From: Alphaproteobacteria bacterium
GTDB lineage: Bacteria; Pseudomonadota; Alphaproteobacteria; Micropepsales; Micropepsaceae
Length of the DNA: 64,000 nucleotides
Assembly: GCA_025361185.1 (NCBI GenBank)
Contig: JANYAR010000143.1
Location: 1-64,000, forward strand
Reading direction: 5' to 3'
Part shown: piece by piece, positions 55,577 through 63,664 of the stretch
Position numbering within the stretch: position 1 is the stretch's first letter
Layout of the letters: each line of letters opens with the position of its first letter
The notes under the pieces: model-generated
Seen by the model: the letters and a program-made list of their open reading frames with translations, nothing else
Database searches by the model: none
What the model was told of the DNA's origin: nothing
Translations under genes and position numbers: made by a program

Positions 55577-55728
55577 AGCGACGAACGCCCGGAGCGAAAG
55601 CGACGGGCCGCGGAAACCGCGTGAATTCCGTCCGCAATTCCGGATACCTAACGCGACCTTAATGGTTTCGGGCTAGTTTTTACCTGTGTATTCATCCGGC
55701 TTCGCCGGTCGTGCTTTACGATGGTACC

Positions 55729-56943
55729 ATGCGTCGGAATCGAAAAAAGTTCCCTATGACGCCGCGACAGACCGCAAAACTTCTTGTTGCCTCGGGCGCG
55801 CTTTTGCTGGCGCTCGGCATGGGTGCGCGCGCGGCCGAAGCCCAGACAAAGCCGTCCACGGTCCATAAAAAATCCGTCCATGCAAAGGCGGCGGCCGCGC
55901 CGGTGATGATCGTCACCAAGCCGCCGGCCGATGCCAAGGACTTCGACTATCAGGCCCGCATCCAGGAAGCCCAGGAGCTGGTCGCCAGGCAGCCGGTGCT
56001 GCCCAGTGACATGCAGGTGGATGCCGACGGGCGGCTTTCCCATTTCGTCTGGACCCTGGCGGTCGGTGCGGCCAGCGGTCCGCTCAAGATCGTCCACATG
56101 AGTGAGGACGGAAAAAACGACCAGGGCCTTACCATCACCTGGCCGGTCGACAATTTCATCAATACGCACTTTCGCGTGGCTGACGGCCTGATCGTCTTTG
56201 CCCAGCGCCGTCCGGTCCACGCCCCAAAAGGCGATCAGGACGGTTATCAGGAAGCGGTCTACACCGCCTATGCCCCCGAACTCGACACCAAGACGATGCG
56301 CGCCGCCGGAATGGCGTATCTGCGCTACCTGCAGCGCCAGGCCTATAACCGCATCAAGGACCATGACGTGCGCTCCCGCGTCGCGCCGGACGCCACGGTG
56401 GCCGACGAGATCCCCACCAACATGGTGCTGCGGCTGATGATCGCCGAACATGTCGATCCCCTGCACATGAAGTATGTCGGGATCGAGCAATGCGTTCACG
56501 AGGTGCTGTTCACCCTGGGCGCCAACACCAGCCACGCCTATGCCTATGCCAAGTCCAGCGTCGGCGCGCGCGGCCTGCCCCAGTTCATGGAAGGCAGTTA
56601 CCAGATGGTCCGCACCAACTATCCCAAGGCGCTGCTGGAGCCGGACTTCGAACGGGGCATCGTCGATTCGCACAATGCGATGCTGGCGACCGTGCTGCTG
56701 ATGGACCTGGAATTGACGGAGTTGCCGCAGGATTATCTGAAGCGGTTCGGCACGTCGGGCCAGCAGCTCACCGCATTCCTGGCCGCCGGGTACAACCGCA
56801 ATCCGGCGCACGTGGTGCAGACCTATCATCGCACCCACAGCCTGACCGGCGGCGACGCCCCCTTCCAGAGCAAGATGTATGTGCGCATACAGAGCTGGGT
56901 AGGCAGCTTTCTCAAGACGGAATACGCCATTCCCCTGGACTGA
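55729..56943 (+). CDS. secreted lytic-transglycosylase-like protein
   Basis: The 404-residue reading (ATG at 55729; upstream GTG at 55711 and ATG at 55756 are alternatives) has a signal region (LLVASGALLLALGMGARAAEA) and a Lys/Ala-rich linker. The C-terminal half shows a lysozyme/SLT-like core: EQCVHEVLFTLGANTSHAYAYAKSSVGARGLPQFMEGSYQMV near 255-295 and LAAGYNRNPAHVVQTYHRT near 360. The S-x-GA-x-GLPQFM and GYN parts are characteristic. The catalytic Glu may be that of VHEVL, but the assignment is uncertain. Confidence 0.68.
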   Translation: MRRNRKKFPMTPRQTAKLLVASGALLLALGMGARAAEAQTKPSTVHKKSVHAKAAAAPVMIVTKPPADAKDFDYQARIQEAQELVARQPVLPSDMQVDADGRLSHFVWTLAVGAASGPLKIVHMSEDGKNDQGLTITWPVDNFINTHFRVADGLIVFAQRRPVHAPKGDQDGYQEAVYTAYAPELDTKTMRAAGMAYLRYLQRQAYNRIKDHDVRSRVAPDATVADEIPTNMVLRLMIAEHVDPLHMKYVGIEQCVHEVLFTLGANTSHAYAYAKSSVGARGLPQFMEGSYQMVRTNYPKALLEPDFERGIVDSHNAMLATVLLMDLELTELPQDYLKRFGTSGQQLTAFLAAGYNRNPAHVVQTYHRTHSLTGGDAPFQSKMYVRIQSWVGSFLKTEYAIPLD

Positions 56944-58093: not shown

Positions 58094-59065
58094 CTAATTT
58101 CCGGGCGGCTGGTCGGTCTGGAAATAATGCACCTGGCCTTCCTTGCTGCGCGGCGTGATCGCCATGCGGATGCTGCGGCCGGTGTTGGGGCAACTGGTGG
58201 CGCGGTGCCAGCGTTCTTCATTGGCGTTGATCAGGTCGCCATATTCGCCATGCACCACACCCACCCCGGAGATCAGGGCACAGACATTGCCGTAAACATT
58301 GAGCCAAACCTCCTGCATGATTTCGTGGAAATGACCCCAGCTGGTGTCGGGCGGCAGCGCCGTCAGCGGCGGTCCGATGTTGAGGTTTGAGGAGGTGTGG
58401 CCGTCATAGAGGAAGCGCTCACCCTTGCGATCCGACGCGCCATATTCGTCCACATTGAAGAACGGCATGTTGAAGCTGTCATAGCCGCCGGTCGAGGTGA
58501 TCTTGGTCTTGATATATTTGTAGCCCTTGATCGGCGCCGGGGTTTCGCTTTCCGGATAGGACGGCACCTGGCCGGCGGGCGTGGTGCGGTAATAGACCAC
58601 CGGCGCGTCGCCGACAGTTTCCAGGCAATAGGACAGGCGCGGCGCCACATTGAACACCCAGCCCTTGGGCAGGACCTTCGGCTCCTGGCCGTCGATGGTG
58701 ACCTTGAGCTGGCCGCTATAGACCCAGCCCCAGGCGCGGTCGTCGGCATAGAACAGGCACTTGGACTTGTCGCCCGGCGCCATCTGGACGTAACGGCCGT
58801 CGAAGTCGCGGTTCAGCAGCACTTTCTGCTCCCAGCGCTTCTGGCCCTGATGCGCTTTGAGAACATCGGCGATGTGCCAGATCGGCTTGTTCACACTCCC
58901 ATAAGGCGTTTCCGGCGTCTTCTGCGCCGCCCAGACCGTGCGGGAGGGACCGTTCTCGCCGGCGGCCTGGGACCACCAGTTGGTCTGCTTGGGGGAAGGC
59001 GTCCCATCCTGCGCCAAGGCGGGCGCTGCGGCCAGGACAAGCAGCAAGGCAGGTAAGTATCTCAT
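58094..59065 (-). CDS. secreted bicupin-like protein
   Basis: The 323-residue protein has a signal peptide (1-18, ALA). Two cupin-like halves are visible: VLLNRDFDGRYVQMAPGDKSKCLFYADDRAWGWVYSGQLKVTIDG near 80-125, and WGHFHEIMQEVWLNVYGNVCALISGVGVVHGEYGDLINANEERWHRATSC near 242-295. The second half holds His and Glu residues placed like the metal ligands of cupins. Substrate unknown. It converges with the MetX-like gene. Confidence 0.7.
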   Translation of the reverse strand: MRYLPALLLVLAAAPALAQDGTPSPKQTNWWSQAAGENGPSRTVWAAQKTPETPYGSVNKPIWHIADVLKAHQGQKRWEQKVLLNRDFDGRYVQMAPGDKSKCLFYADDRAWGWVYSGQLKVTIDGQEPKVLPKGWVFNVAPRLSYCLETVGDAPVVYYRTTPAGQVPSYPESETPAPIKGYKYIKTKITSTGGYDSFNMPFFNVDEYGASDRKGERFLYDGHTSSNLNIGPPLTALPPDTSWGHFHEIMQEVWLNVYGNVCALISGVGVVHGEYGDLINANEERWHRATSCPNTGRSIRMAITPRSKEGQVHYFQTDQPPGN

Positions 59066-60420: not shown

Positions 60421-60894
60421 CTATTGGCGAACCTTGAACACAATCGCCCGGAACACCGTACCGGATTTGACCACGGTCAGGTGCGGCTGGCCCGCGGGGA
60501 CCACGACAAAATCGCCGGGCCGCAAACTCACCACCGTTCCGCCGGCGATGGCGCCGCCGCGCCGCTCGCCAGGGCCGGTATCGCGCATGCCCGTGGCGGT
60601 GCCGCCGAAAGTGAATTCCGCGTCGCCCTGCTGGATCGCCATATAGTCGATCCAGTACTCATGCACTTCCACTTCGCCGGGCCCGGTGCGCCCCGCCACC
60701 AGCACATAATGGTTCTCATGGTCCGCCAGGGTGGCAAGCGTCAGCGCGCCCTTGCCCGACGCAAGCGCCGCCAGATCGGAATCGCTGAAATGGTGAAACC
60801 CATCCGGCGGCGTGGCATGGCCGGTGGTCTGTGCCTGGGCGGCGTGCGCCAAACACAAAGCGAATCCGATTCCCAGCAACGACATTTTCAACAT
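60421..60894 (-). CDS. secreted cupin-domain protein
   Basis: The 157-residue protein has a signal peptide (about 1-21, AQA) and one cupin domain: GPGEVEVHEYWIDYMAIQQGDAEFTFGG near 72-100 and VVSLRPGDFVVVPAGQPHLTVVKSG near 125-148. Possible metal ligands are His, Glu and the final His of AGQPH. It is a small periplasmic binding or isomerase-type cupin. Substrate unknown. Confidence 0.82.
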   Translation of the reverse strand: MLKMSLLGIGFALCLAHAAQAQTTGHATPPDGFHHFSDSDLAALASGKGALTLATLADHENHYVLVAGRTGPGEVEVHEYWIDYMAIQQGDAEFTFGGTATGMRDTGPGERRGGAIAGGTVVSLRPGDFVVVPAGQPHLTVVKSGTVFRAIVFKVRQ

Positions 60895-61059
60895 GATGTC
60901 CTCCCCAATGCCGGCAGGTTCGCCGGCCCTTGTCCGAGCCTATCGCCAATGTCCGCCGGCGGCCACGACTTCGCCCAAATTGGGAACCGGACGCTTCGCG
61001 CAGCTCTGGACGAAAACCGGGCATTTGCCGCAGACTGCGCCGGTCATCCGGAGGCTTCC

Positions 61060-62259
61060 ATGGCACAGAAAAAGGTAAAATCGCGCACGAAGAGCGCTGC
61101 GAAGAAAGCGCCAAAAGCATCCCGCCGCACAAGGAATGGCAATCTGATCCTGGTGGCCACCCGCAAGGGCGCCTGGCTCTACCATGGCGACAAGGCGCGC
61201 CAGCAATGGCGCAGCGACGGGCCGCATTTCCTGGGCCAGATCATCCAGCATCTGGTGCTCGATCCGCGCGACGGTAAGACCTTGCTGGCCGCCGCCAGCA
61301 CCGGCCATCTGGGCCCGACCATCTTCCGCTCGACCGATCTGGGGCGCAGCTGGAAGGAAGCCACACGCCCGCCGGCCTTCCGCAAAGTGCCCGAAGGAGA
61401 GAAGGGCCGCAGCGTCAATCACACCTTCTGGCTCACCCCGGCGCACGCCAACGAACCCGGCGTCTGGTATGCCGGCACATCGCCGCAAGGCTTGTTCCGC
61501 AGCGAGGACGGCGGCATGACCTGGGAAGCTTTCTCCGGCCTCAATGACGATCCGCGCTACCGCGCCTGGATGGGGAGCGAGCAAGACGGCACCCCGGATG
61601 GACCCAAGCTGCACTCCATCATCGTCGATCCGCGCGACCCAGCGCATCTGTATTTCGCCATGTCGGGCGGCGGCGTGCATGAAACGCGCGATGGCGGCAA
61701 GCACTGGGAGCCGCTGGTCGAGGGCATGGAGGTGGTGGGTGGGTTCGATGCCAAAAACGTCACCTTTCACGATCCGCATTGCGTGCGTCTCTGCCCCTCA
61801 AATCCCGACCGGCTGTACCAGCAGAACCATTGCGGGATTTACCGGCTCGACCGTCCCGCCAAAGTCTGGAAGCGCATCGGCAAGGCCATGCCCAAAAGCG
61901 TCGGCGATATCGGGTTTCCCATGGTGGTGCATCCGCGCGACGACGCGCGCGCCTGGGTGCTGCCGATGGACGGCCAGACGGTGTGGCCCCGGACCAGTGT
62001 CAACGGCCAGCCCGCGATCTACGGCACGCCAGACGGCGGCAAAAGCTGGAAGCGGCTGGACAGCGGTCTGCCCAAGGCCCAGGCTTGGTGGACAGTGAAA
62101 CGGCAGGCCTTTGCGGCCGACGCCAGCAATCCCGTCGGGCTTTATTTCGGCACCACCAGCGGCGAGCTTTGGACAAGCCGCAACGAGGGCAAGGCCTGGA
62201 ATTGCATCGCCCGGCATCTGCCGGAAATCTACGCGGTGGAAACCGCCGAGATGGAATAA
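61060..62259 (+). CDS. BNR/sialidase-like beta-propeller protein
   Basis: From the ATG at 61060 (GGAGGCTTCC upstream) the product is 399 residues. A Lys-rich N-terminus is followed by repeated BNR/Asp-box motifs: STDLGRSW, SEDGGMTW, TRDGGKHW, TPDGGKSW and SRNEGKAW, the hallmark of VPS10/sialidase-type propellers. There is no signal peptide, so it is likely cytosolic. It is translationally coupled (TAATG) to the MoaD/ThiS-like gene, suggesting a shared function. Confidence 0.8.
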   Translation: MAQKKVKSRTKSAAKKAPKASRRTRNGNLILVATRKGAWLYHGDKARQQWRSDGPHFLGQIIQHLVLDPRDGKTLLAAASTGHLGPTIFRSTDLGRSWKEATRPPAFRKVPEGEKGRSVNHTFWLTPAHANEPGVWYAGTSPQGLFRSEDGGMTWEAFSGLNDDPRYRAWMGSEQDGTPDGPKLHSIIVDPRDPAHLYFAMSGGGVHETRDGGKHWEPLVEGMEVVGGFDAKNVTFHDPHCVRLCPSNPDRLYQQNHCGIYRLDRPAKVWKRIGKAMPKSVGDIGFPMVVHPRDDARAWVLPMDGQTVWPRTSVNGQPAIYGTPDGGKSWKRLDSGLPKAQAWWTVKRQAFAADASNPVGLYFGTTSGELWTSRNEGKAWNCIARHLPEIYAVETAEME

Positions 62260-62531
62260 TGGCTGACGGCCCGGTCAGGATTCTGATTGCCAGTCCCTTG
62301 CGGTCCTACACCGGCGCGGACGAGGTCGAGGCGTCGGGGAAAACCTTGGGCGCGCTGCTTGGTGATCTGGACCGGCGCTTTCCCGGTATCCGCTTTCGCA
62401 TGATCGATGAGCAGGATAAAATCAGGCGGCACATTCGCTTCTTTATCAATGGCGAACCGGTATTCGATCTTGCCGGCGGCGTTCATCCTTCCGACGAGGT
62501 GTGTATCGTGCAGGCACTCAGTGGCGGATAA
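62259..62531 (+). CDS. MoaD/ThiS-family sulfur-carrier-like protein
   Basis: The 90-residue beta-grasp protein has the family order: an N-terminal RILIASPLRSYTG strand, a hydrophobic GKTLGALLGDLDRRFPGIRFRMID helix-strand, FFINGEPVFDLAGGVHPSDEVCIVQAL and a C-terminal double glycine (SGG). The GG end is required for adenylation and thiocarboxylate formation in sulfur carriers. No MoeB/ThiF-like activator gene is nearby. It overlaps the BNR gene by one base. Confidence 0.82.
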   Translation: MADGPVRILIASPLRSYTGADEVEASGKTLGALLGDLDRRFPGIRFRMIDEQDKIRRHIRFFINGEPVFDLAGGVHPSDEVCIVQALSGG

Positions 62532-62788
62532 ATTGGGCGGCGGATAACCCACTGGGAGCACTTGGCGATGACGCGCCAGGTCTCGCAAATGACACCTTGT
62601 CGCCCTCCGATTCCGGTGGATGGCGCCGAATCCGCATTGCCAGCGGGCCCAATTGGGCAGAACCTGCCCTTGATGGCGGCCCCGTTACCGGGCTCCAAAA
62701 TCCAAACAGGGCGAACCACCATGCGTGAGCAGATCATTGAACTTTCCGGGTGCGTGCTTTGAGCAGCCCCTGGACGCCGCAAGGCAAG

Positions 62789-63664
62789 ATGTCGCCCATC
62801 AACTTTAACGGTATCAAGGGCCTGCCGCCCGGGGCCATTAGCGGTGGTGCGGTGGTCATCGCGCTGGCGGTGATCCTGCTCTCAACCTATTTCACCATCG
62901 ACCAGGGTGAGCGCGGCGTGATCCTGCACAATGGCGCCATCGCCGGGGAAGCCGAGCCGGGGCTGCATTTCAAGCTGCCCATCATCACCACCATCGCGAA
63001 AATCTCGGTCCAGATCCAGAAGGAAGCGTTCGAGAAGACCGCCGAAGGCGACACAAGGCTTCAGGCCTATTCGCGCGACCAGCAGCCCGCCACCATCGCC
63101 ATGGCGGTGAACTATCACGTCACCGACGCCTCGGCCGTCTATGCCCAGTTCGGCTCGCTGACCAACATGAAATCGCGCATCATCAATTCCAGAGCCTATG
63201 AGCAGGTGAAGAATGTCTTCGGCCAGTTCGATGCCGCCGACGCCATCCAGAAACGCGCACTTCTGAACGCCGAAGTGTTCGCCGCCATCCGCAAATCGGT
63301 GAGCGGCCCGGTGGTGATCGACAGCGTGCAGATCGAGGACATCACTTTCTCCACCCAGTATGAAGGCGCCGTCGAGGCCCGCATGCAGGCCATCGTCAAG
63401 CAGCAGCAGGCCGAAGCCGACAAGCAGAAGCGCATCATCGATGCCGATGCATCCGCCTATGAGGTCAAGGCCGCCGCCGACGCCAAGGCGCACCAGATCG
63501 AAGTGCAGGGCAAGGCCGAGGCCGGCGCGATCCAGGCGCGCGGCGACGCCCTGCGCAACAATCCCAGCCTGCCCACCCTGGTCGCGGCCGAGAAATGGAA
63601 CGGCATACTGCCCACCACCATGGTGCCGGGAAATACCGTGCCGTTTTTGAACATCGCCAAATAG
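62789..63664 (+). CDS. prohibitin-like SPFH protein
   Basis: From the ATG at 62789 (AAGGCA upstream) the product is 291 residues. One N-terminal membrane helix (GGAVVIALAVILLSTYF) is followed by the prohibitin-type band 7 domain: IDQGERGVILHNGAIAGEAEPGLHFKLPIITTIAKISVQIQKEAFEK, then INSRAYEQVKNVFGQFDAADAIQKRALLNAEV. A coiled coil rich in QAEADKQKRIIDADASAYEVKAAADAKAHQIE follows. It likely forms large membrane rings, as prohibitins do. This is the second SPFH gene of the window (compare 15051-16016) but without NfeD. Confidence 0.85.
   Translation: MSPINFNGIKGLPPGAISGGAVVIALAVILLSTYFTIDQGERGVILHNGAIAGEAEPGLHFKLPIITTIAKISVQIQKEAFEKTAEGDTRLQAYSRDQQPATIAMAVNYHVTDASAVYAQFGSLTNMKSRIINSRAYEQVKNVFGQFDAADAIQKRALLNAEVFAAIRKSVSGPVVIDSVQIEDITFSTQYEGAVEARMQAIVKQQQAEADKQKRIIDADASAYEVKAAADAKAHQIEVQGKAEAGAIQARGDALRNNPSLPTLVAAEKWNGILPTTMVPGNTVPFLNIAK

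Follow-up and report, generated by a model that had tools for sequence, protein, structure and literature searches.

What would a beta-propeller protein do with a ubiquitin-like carrier encoded in overlap with it? The question is raised by a gene pair near the end of the 64,000-nucleotide stretch of alphaproteobacterial DNA analysed here (the window), in which an Asp-box (BNR) propeller gene runs into a gene for a small protein with a C-terminal double glycine. The answer preferred here, at somewhat under an even chance, is that the small protein is a CysO-like carrier dedicated to the propeller, charged by a shared E1 and serving most likely as a sulfur donor.

The gene pair and its surroundings in the window

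The pair comprises the following features:
61050-61054, + strand: GGAGG, the likely ribosome-binding site of the propeller gene (read in the sequence)
61060-62259, + strand: propeller gene, encoding a 399-aa Asp-box (BNR) protein (ORF call)
61777-61833, + strand: codons H240 to C258 of the propeller, in the motifs HDPHC and QQNHCG (58-row alignment of diverse propellers)
62257-62261, + strand: TAATG stop/start overlap with one shared base (read in the sequence)
62259-62531, + strand: carrier gene, encoding a 90-aa beta-grasp protein with the C-terminus QALSGG (ORF call)

The first base of the carrier ATG at 62259 is the last A of the propeller TAA (62257-62259), and GGAGG stands five bases before the propeller ATG at 61060. 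The open reading frames, their coordinates, the TAATG overlap and the double glycine had all been described in the first-pass annotation, and each is present in the sequence. The overlap suggests that the two proteins are produced jointly. In Pfam, the propeller matches Sortilin-Vps10 (38.9 bits) and BNR (31.0 bits) and the carrier matches ThiS (PF02597, 30.7 bits), all above the cut-offs.

Six neighbouring genes were scanned with Pfam. Upstream of the pair lie alpha/beta hydrolase and MFS transporter genes together with a divergent gene (60421-60894) that has a weak cupin match below the cut-off, and a Band_7 gene follows downstream; given such neighbours, the pair looks like a two-gene unit here. 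Two long open frames, at 58094-59065 and 55711-56943, had no Pfam match at E ≤ 0.001. A sigma-70 and terminator scan of 60850-62900 returned one promoter-like site, located within the carrier gene, and a single terminator-like site, such sites being fewer than in shuffled sequences. A phage origin was rejected, as a phage DNA search at E 1e-5 gave no match, and so was a role in anti-phage defence, with no PADLOC family matching propeller or carrier at E ≤ 0.01.

Conservation, inheritance and context of the pair

At least 560 propeller relatives emerged from a scan of species genomes, and locus analysis used the best 80. A carrier gene lies directly downstream on the same strand in all 80, the contig ending inside the carrier gene in two of these loci (L052 and L053). 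The record labels of the 80 relatives, which are mostly metagenome-assembled, cover Alpha-, Beta- and Gammaproteobacteria, Myxococcales/Myxococcaceae, Nitrospirae, Nitrospinae and Vicinamibacteria. Because the best 80 were picked by similarity, a class-wide draw of 190 genomes was also searched. A propeller was present at E ≤ 1e-20 in 34 of them, and it is adjoined by a carrier in at least 31 of the 34, in either gene order. Thirty class-wide loci were inspected, and the carrier is adjacent on the same strand in 29 (14 downstream, 15 upstream) and missing in one (L142). In the other four propeller genomes, the carrier is adjacent by coordinates in two (G147 and G041), the propeller contig has no PF02597 match in one (G146) and the propeller sits at a contig edge in the last (G099). 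The frequency of the pairing is far above chance. The first-pass annotation had suggested surveying the co-occurrence of the pair across genomes and had named a pairing unique to this genome as part of the outcome that would speak against a module; these counts answer that survey, and the pair is widespread.

The propellers of L095, L096, L100, L117 and L142 have no adjacent carrier; the genome that holds L142 (G141) has only two other PF02597 proteins, both located elsewhere, so that linkage to a carrier may not be needed for the propeller to work. Among annotated plasmid records, carrier-first examples list a MoaD/ThiS family protein followed by an exo-alpha-sialidase or a hypothetical protein, and others list the propeller without a carrier. 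A Pseudomonas aeruginosa plasmid record (L094, NZ_CP133752.1) includes the pair within a segment that looks like a chromosomal block, where a PmpM efflux gene is also predicted. Start codons assigned by a crude rule give a four-base stop/start overlap in 15 of the 69 pairs so assigned.

Protein trees of propeller and carrier were compared over 123 pairs. Both trees group the 19 pairs in which the carrier comes first into one clade, with support of 1.0 in the propeller tree and 0.998 in the carrier tree, and since this gene order is one clade in each tree, the pair appears to be inherited as a unit. Distances in the two trees correlate with r 0.96 over the 123 pairs and 0.56 within 69 close pairs, values in which shared species descent is uncontrolled. 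Ten canonical MoaD/ThiS sequences cluster apart from the pair carriers, with the exception of the actinobacterial L099 and L116 (support 0.71). As judged from these sequence comparisons, propeller and carrier very probably work as one unit, a conserved module, because both genes stay together through many distantly related bacteria.

The wider gene context was surveyed in 99 loci using a home-made gene caller, with neighbour families mostly named by reading the sequences and checked with Pfam for L049. A YCII gene occurs within 3 kb of the propeller open frame in 17 of the 99 loci, a VOC gene in 13 and a sigma factor in 8 (11 when the whole locus is considered). In 14 loci the nearest YCII gene is at most 9 bases from the propeller frame, which can extend upstream of the true start. 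Record titles place 15 of the 17 YCII loci in Betaproteobacteria, L022 in Myxococcaceae and L094 in Pseudomonas. The fullest clusters, L018 and L049, encode on one strand a sigma factor, two ABC proteins, YCII, two VOC proteins, a START-like protein, two YCII proteins, the propeller, the carrier, YCII and DUF1428; for L049, Pfam confirmed the sigma factor (with DUF6596), YCII, VOC-like, START-like and DUF1428 genes. In the available part of one paper, ECF42 sigma factors are described as having a TPR-rich extension and a YCII-related neighbour (PMC8999054), and excerpts of another report that ECF42 of Sinorhizobium meliloti raises glyoxylase-like and ligand-binding proteins (PMC6180224). The loci of the relatives resemble ECF42 clusters with YCII and VOC genes, an assignment made from the long C-terminal part of the sigma factor, the YCII neighbours and the published descriptions, whereas none of these genes is found among the six scanned neighbours in the window. 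This context is thus a lead for function and not part of the module, and it suggests that the pair acts in detoxification or stress metabolism in Betaproteobacteria and Pseudomonas. An ECF42-like motif, TGTCG[GA]-N16-18-CGTC, derived from two promoters given in the available text of PMC6180224, was not enriched, with 6 matches in the 17 YCII loci (0.026 per kb; shuffles 4.4) against 41 in other close loci (0.047 per kb), and there was none near the window pair. Diverged propeller-carrier pairs in five same-genus genomes (L106-L110) have another setting, in which the propeller frame is at most 1.8 kb from a MoaB-like gene and at most 2.3 kb from a lytic-transglycosylase-like gene, both named by reading.

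Propeller, carrier and candidate activating enzymes

The window propeller matches PDB entry 3b7f (Reut_B4987 / YP_299179.1 of Ralstonia eutropha JMP134) with a phmmer E-value of 1.2e-160. An AlphaFold2 (AF2) model of the relative L044 superposes on 3b7f with Z 53.2 and an rmsd of 1.6 Å over 356 residues at 62-63% identity. The window protein, which forms one propeller of about 370 residues, thus belongs to the same family by full-length homology and, through L044, to the same fold, a single seven-bladed Asp-box propeller, with no important difference seen. Names such as sialidase, exo-alpha-sialidase and glycosyl hydrolase are attached to some relatives in databases. The RIP motif is a hallmark of GH33 sialidases, and neither this motif nor a signal peptide was seen by eye in the window propeller. 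Excerpts of the paper that treats 3b7f describe it as functionally uncharacterised as of 2009, with seven blades carrying Asp-boxes, and mention no carrier partner (PMC2716378); they also give GH74 enzymes 7+7 blades and GH33 enzymes 6. A GH74 xyloglucanase was rejected, as it needs two tandem seven-bladed propellers and the window protein has one, and a GH33 sialidase was rejected on the required six blades and RIP motif, the best match being the seven-bladed 3b7f. For the L044 model, GH74 enzymes come next after 3b7f with Z up to 29.4, aligned to about half of each GH74 chain. Thiocyanate dehydrogenase is also among the structure matches (VIA-align, Z 24), a match that is uninformative because it is tied with unrelated propellers. 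The N-terminal stretch encoded at 61060-61140 is rich in Lys, Arg and Ala, and several relatives have similar basic starts.

Positions conserved at 95% or more in the 58 aligned propeller rows include K36, G37, H240, Q255, H257, G285, F286, P302, R311 and R348, and H185 is conserved at 91%. These near-invariant residues are common to the propeller subfamilies, and in the stretches inspected the five carrier-less propellers (L095, L096, L100, L117 and L142) retain K36, H240, Q255 and H257. We infer that K36, H185, H240, Q255, H257, R311 and R348 share one pocket.

The AF2 model of the carrier alone has a mean pLDDT of 89.5, with 75 for the last ten residues. Its fold gives TM-scores of 0.86-0.88 to CysO, 0.81-0.83 to SAMP1, 0.66-0.75 to the MoaD proteins of molybdopterin synthase and 0.40 to ThiS. 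On this model and on sequence, the carrier is a ubiquitin-like beta-grasp protein of the CysO/SAMP1 type. CysO is the thiocarboxylate sulfur carrier of cysteine and 2-thiosugar synthesis. It is the best PDB match of the carrier in both sequence and fold (3dwg, 3dwm, 4n6e), and the two have a Gly-Gly C-terminus in common; the carrier differs in having a beta-propeller as its partner, with no CysM or Mec named among the six scanned neighbours. By title, the PDB entries matched include sulfur-carrier and BexX/CysO complex entries. The archaeal ubiquitin-like modifier SAMP1 (3po0, 4hro, 2l52) has a similar fold, and the SAMP1 NCBIfam model is matched by all 43 carriers of an alignment at E ≤ 0.01, but the window carrier scores 37.8 bits against the SAMP1 equivalog NF041918, below its cut-off of 60. 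The tail x[LIVF][SAT]GG is present in 122 of 123 pairs, in two of them after trimming of residues behind Gly-Gly. A Nonomuraea carrier that adjoins a propeller (L116:6069-6383) ends in PALA, without Gly-Gly, and two carriers (L124:1294-1686 and L132:2523-2918) have 24 and 17 residues behind it and, as their sequences suggest, would need trimming before activation. The MoaD-like label of the first-pass annotation was therefore imprecise, since fold and sequence are nearest CysO/SAMP1, and a moaD-moaE pair and a ThiS-ThiG fusion are present separately in the genome. A canonical MoaD of molybdopterin synthase was rejected: a MoaE-like gene adjoins another MoaD, and no moaE is among the six neighbours in the window.

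The three PF02597 proteins of the source genome are the ThiS-ThiG fusion, the MoaD beside MoaE (both named by reading their sequences) and the window carrier, and they lie on three separate contigs (C167, C27 and C104, the last being the window contig). The moaD-moaE operon, with moaB-like and moaC-like genes, is on another contig than the pair (named by reading). For E1 enzymes (PF00899), the genome has a strong match on contig C134 and a weak one, below the cut-off, on C163. The earlier observation that no activating, molybdenum or thiamine gene is near can be given a scope: the contig holds no E1 and no other PF02597 protein, and the search for molybdenum and thiamine genes covered the six scanned neighbours, which include no molybdenum cofactor (Moco) gene. 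Use of the ordinary MoeB elsewhere had been thought to count against a separate module; should the carrier be activated, such use is likely, as the genome offers a single strong E1 candidate, a full-length MoeB-type protein on another contig. The source genome and 12 genomes of relatives have one strong MoeB-type match each, some with further PF00899 matches, and as none of the 13 has a PF00899 match on the propeller contig, there is no linked E1 in these genomes. In one same-genus genome, a propeller and a MoeB-type E1 are about 8.7 kb apart on one contig (G164:C5:167829-169010 and 177678-178391). By hand count, PF00899 is present in 34 of 34 propeller genomes and in 122 of 156 genomes without a propeller (Fisher p 0.0009), an association that may merely mirror genome size. 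A Prok-JAB (JAMM) protein is encoded on another contig of the source genome. Of the 34 propeller genomes, 12 have a strong Prok-JAB match (E < 1e-10, hand count), as do 30 of the 156 others (p 0.07), so such a deconjugase is not required, and a dependence of the pair on JAMM was rejected as unsupported by this distribution.

Possible roles of the pair

In the preferred explanation, both proteins would be cytosolic, and the carrier would be adenylated and thiocarboxylated by the single housekeeping MoeB-type E1; charging by this shared enzyme is likely, given the modelled carrier fold and the tail. The carrier C-terminus would then be presented to the propeller pocket built of the near-invariant residues above, and the propeller would take sulfur from it to modify a small molecule. 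This passing of sulfur from carrier to propeller is a best guess. Two points favour a sulfur donor over protein modification and over a solely structural role: the carrier is most similar to those of the CysO type, and no deconjugase is needed. An AF2 read-through pseudo-complex gave a pTM of 0.72, with the linker below 50 and a mean of 65 for the last five residues, and showed no confident docking of propeller and carrier, a weak test that is limited by the linker and by alignment depth. A more specific and doubtful proposal is that thiocarboxylated ubiquitin-like carriers have in the propeller a client enzyme of a new type: its His/Gln/Arg site would receive the sulfur from the dedicated carrier and place it in a small molecule, and in part of the tree the pair would be an arm of the ECF42 stress clusters.

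Two other explanations keep carrier and propeller as partners, and both are considered unlikely. The carrier could be a structural or regulatory subunit whose tail plugs the propeller pocket without activation chemistry, which would suit the tight pairing and overlap, the L116 carrier lacking Gly-Gly and the propellers without an adjacent carrier; however, Gly-Gly in 122 of 123 pairs goes beyond the needs of a structural tail, and the pseudo-complex failed to dock confidently. Rather improbable, too, is a SAMP-like protein modifier that the shared E1 activates for attachment to lysine residues of the propeller or of further proteins, altering their activity. Unprocessed ubiquitin-like modifiers have residues after Gly-Gly, as the L124 and L132 carriers do, and the SAMP1 model matches, the close fold and the Prok-JAB protein of the source genome point the same way. 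Against such a modifier, strong Prok-JAB matches are found in just 12 of the 34 propeller genomes, and one-to-one gene pairing would be expected of a dedicated partner more than of a general modifier.

The remaining explanations are less probable still. A service in Moco synthesis, with the carrier as a spare MoaD and the propeller as a Moco-handling protein, is very unlikely: the MoaB-like gene near the diverged pairs L106-L110 is consistent with it, but a moaD beside moaE is already present elsewhere in the source genome, the carrier is nearer to CysO than to MoaD and the scanned neighbours lack Moco genes. A sialidase or other secreted glycosidase with an incidental carrier, as the database names and the distant GH74 similarity would have it, was rejected on the architecture of the propeller and is highly improbable, given its single seven blades against 7+7 or 6, the lack by eye of a RIP motif and signal peptide, and the conservation of the carrier beside it.

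The pair of Pseudomonas aeruginosa is presumably PA1355/PA1356. In one study, a PA1356 that may differ from the pair protein is reported to promote colonisation, adhesion and biofilm formation and is lowered in that study's data (PMC11538994). No description of the propeller-carrier pair was found in the accessible portions of the open-access literature, where the term ThiS is partly confounded by a common word, and the main text of PMC1779556 makes no mention of BNR, sialidase, glycosyl hydrolase or propeller. The first-pass view of an uncharacterised module accordingly fits the literature, and its module part is borne out by the conservation of the pair, the two gene orders and the congruent trees; both of its options, sulfur transfer and protein modification, are compatible with the data.

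For a family with a solved structure (3b7f) that came without a function, and with relatives named as sialidases or glycosyl hydrolases, the analysis supplies a partner protein, a likely route of activation and a list of residues. The pair is present in many environmental and some clinical bacteria, and if the carrier is charged, the propeller would be a new client for the field of sulfur carriers and ubiquitin-like proteins.
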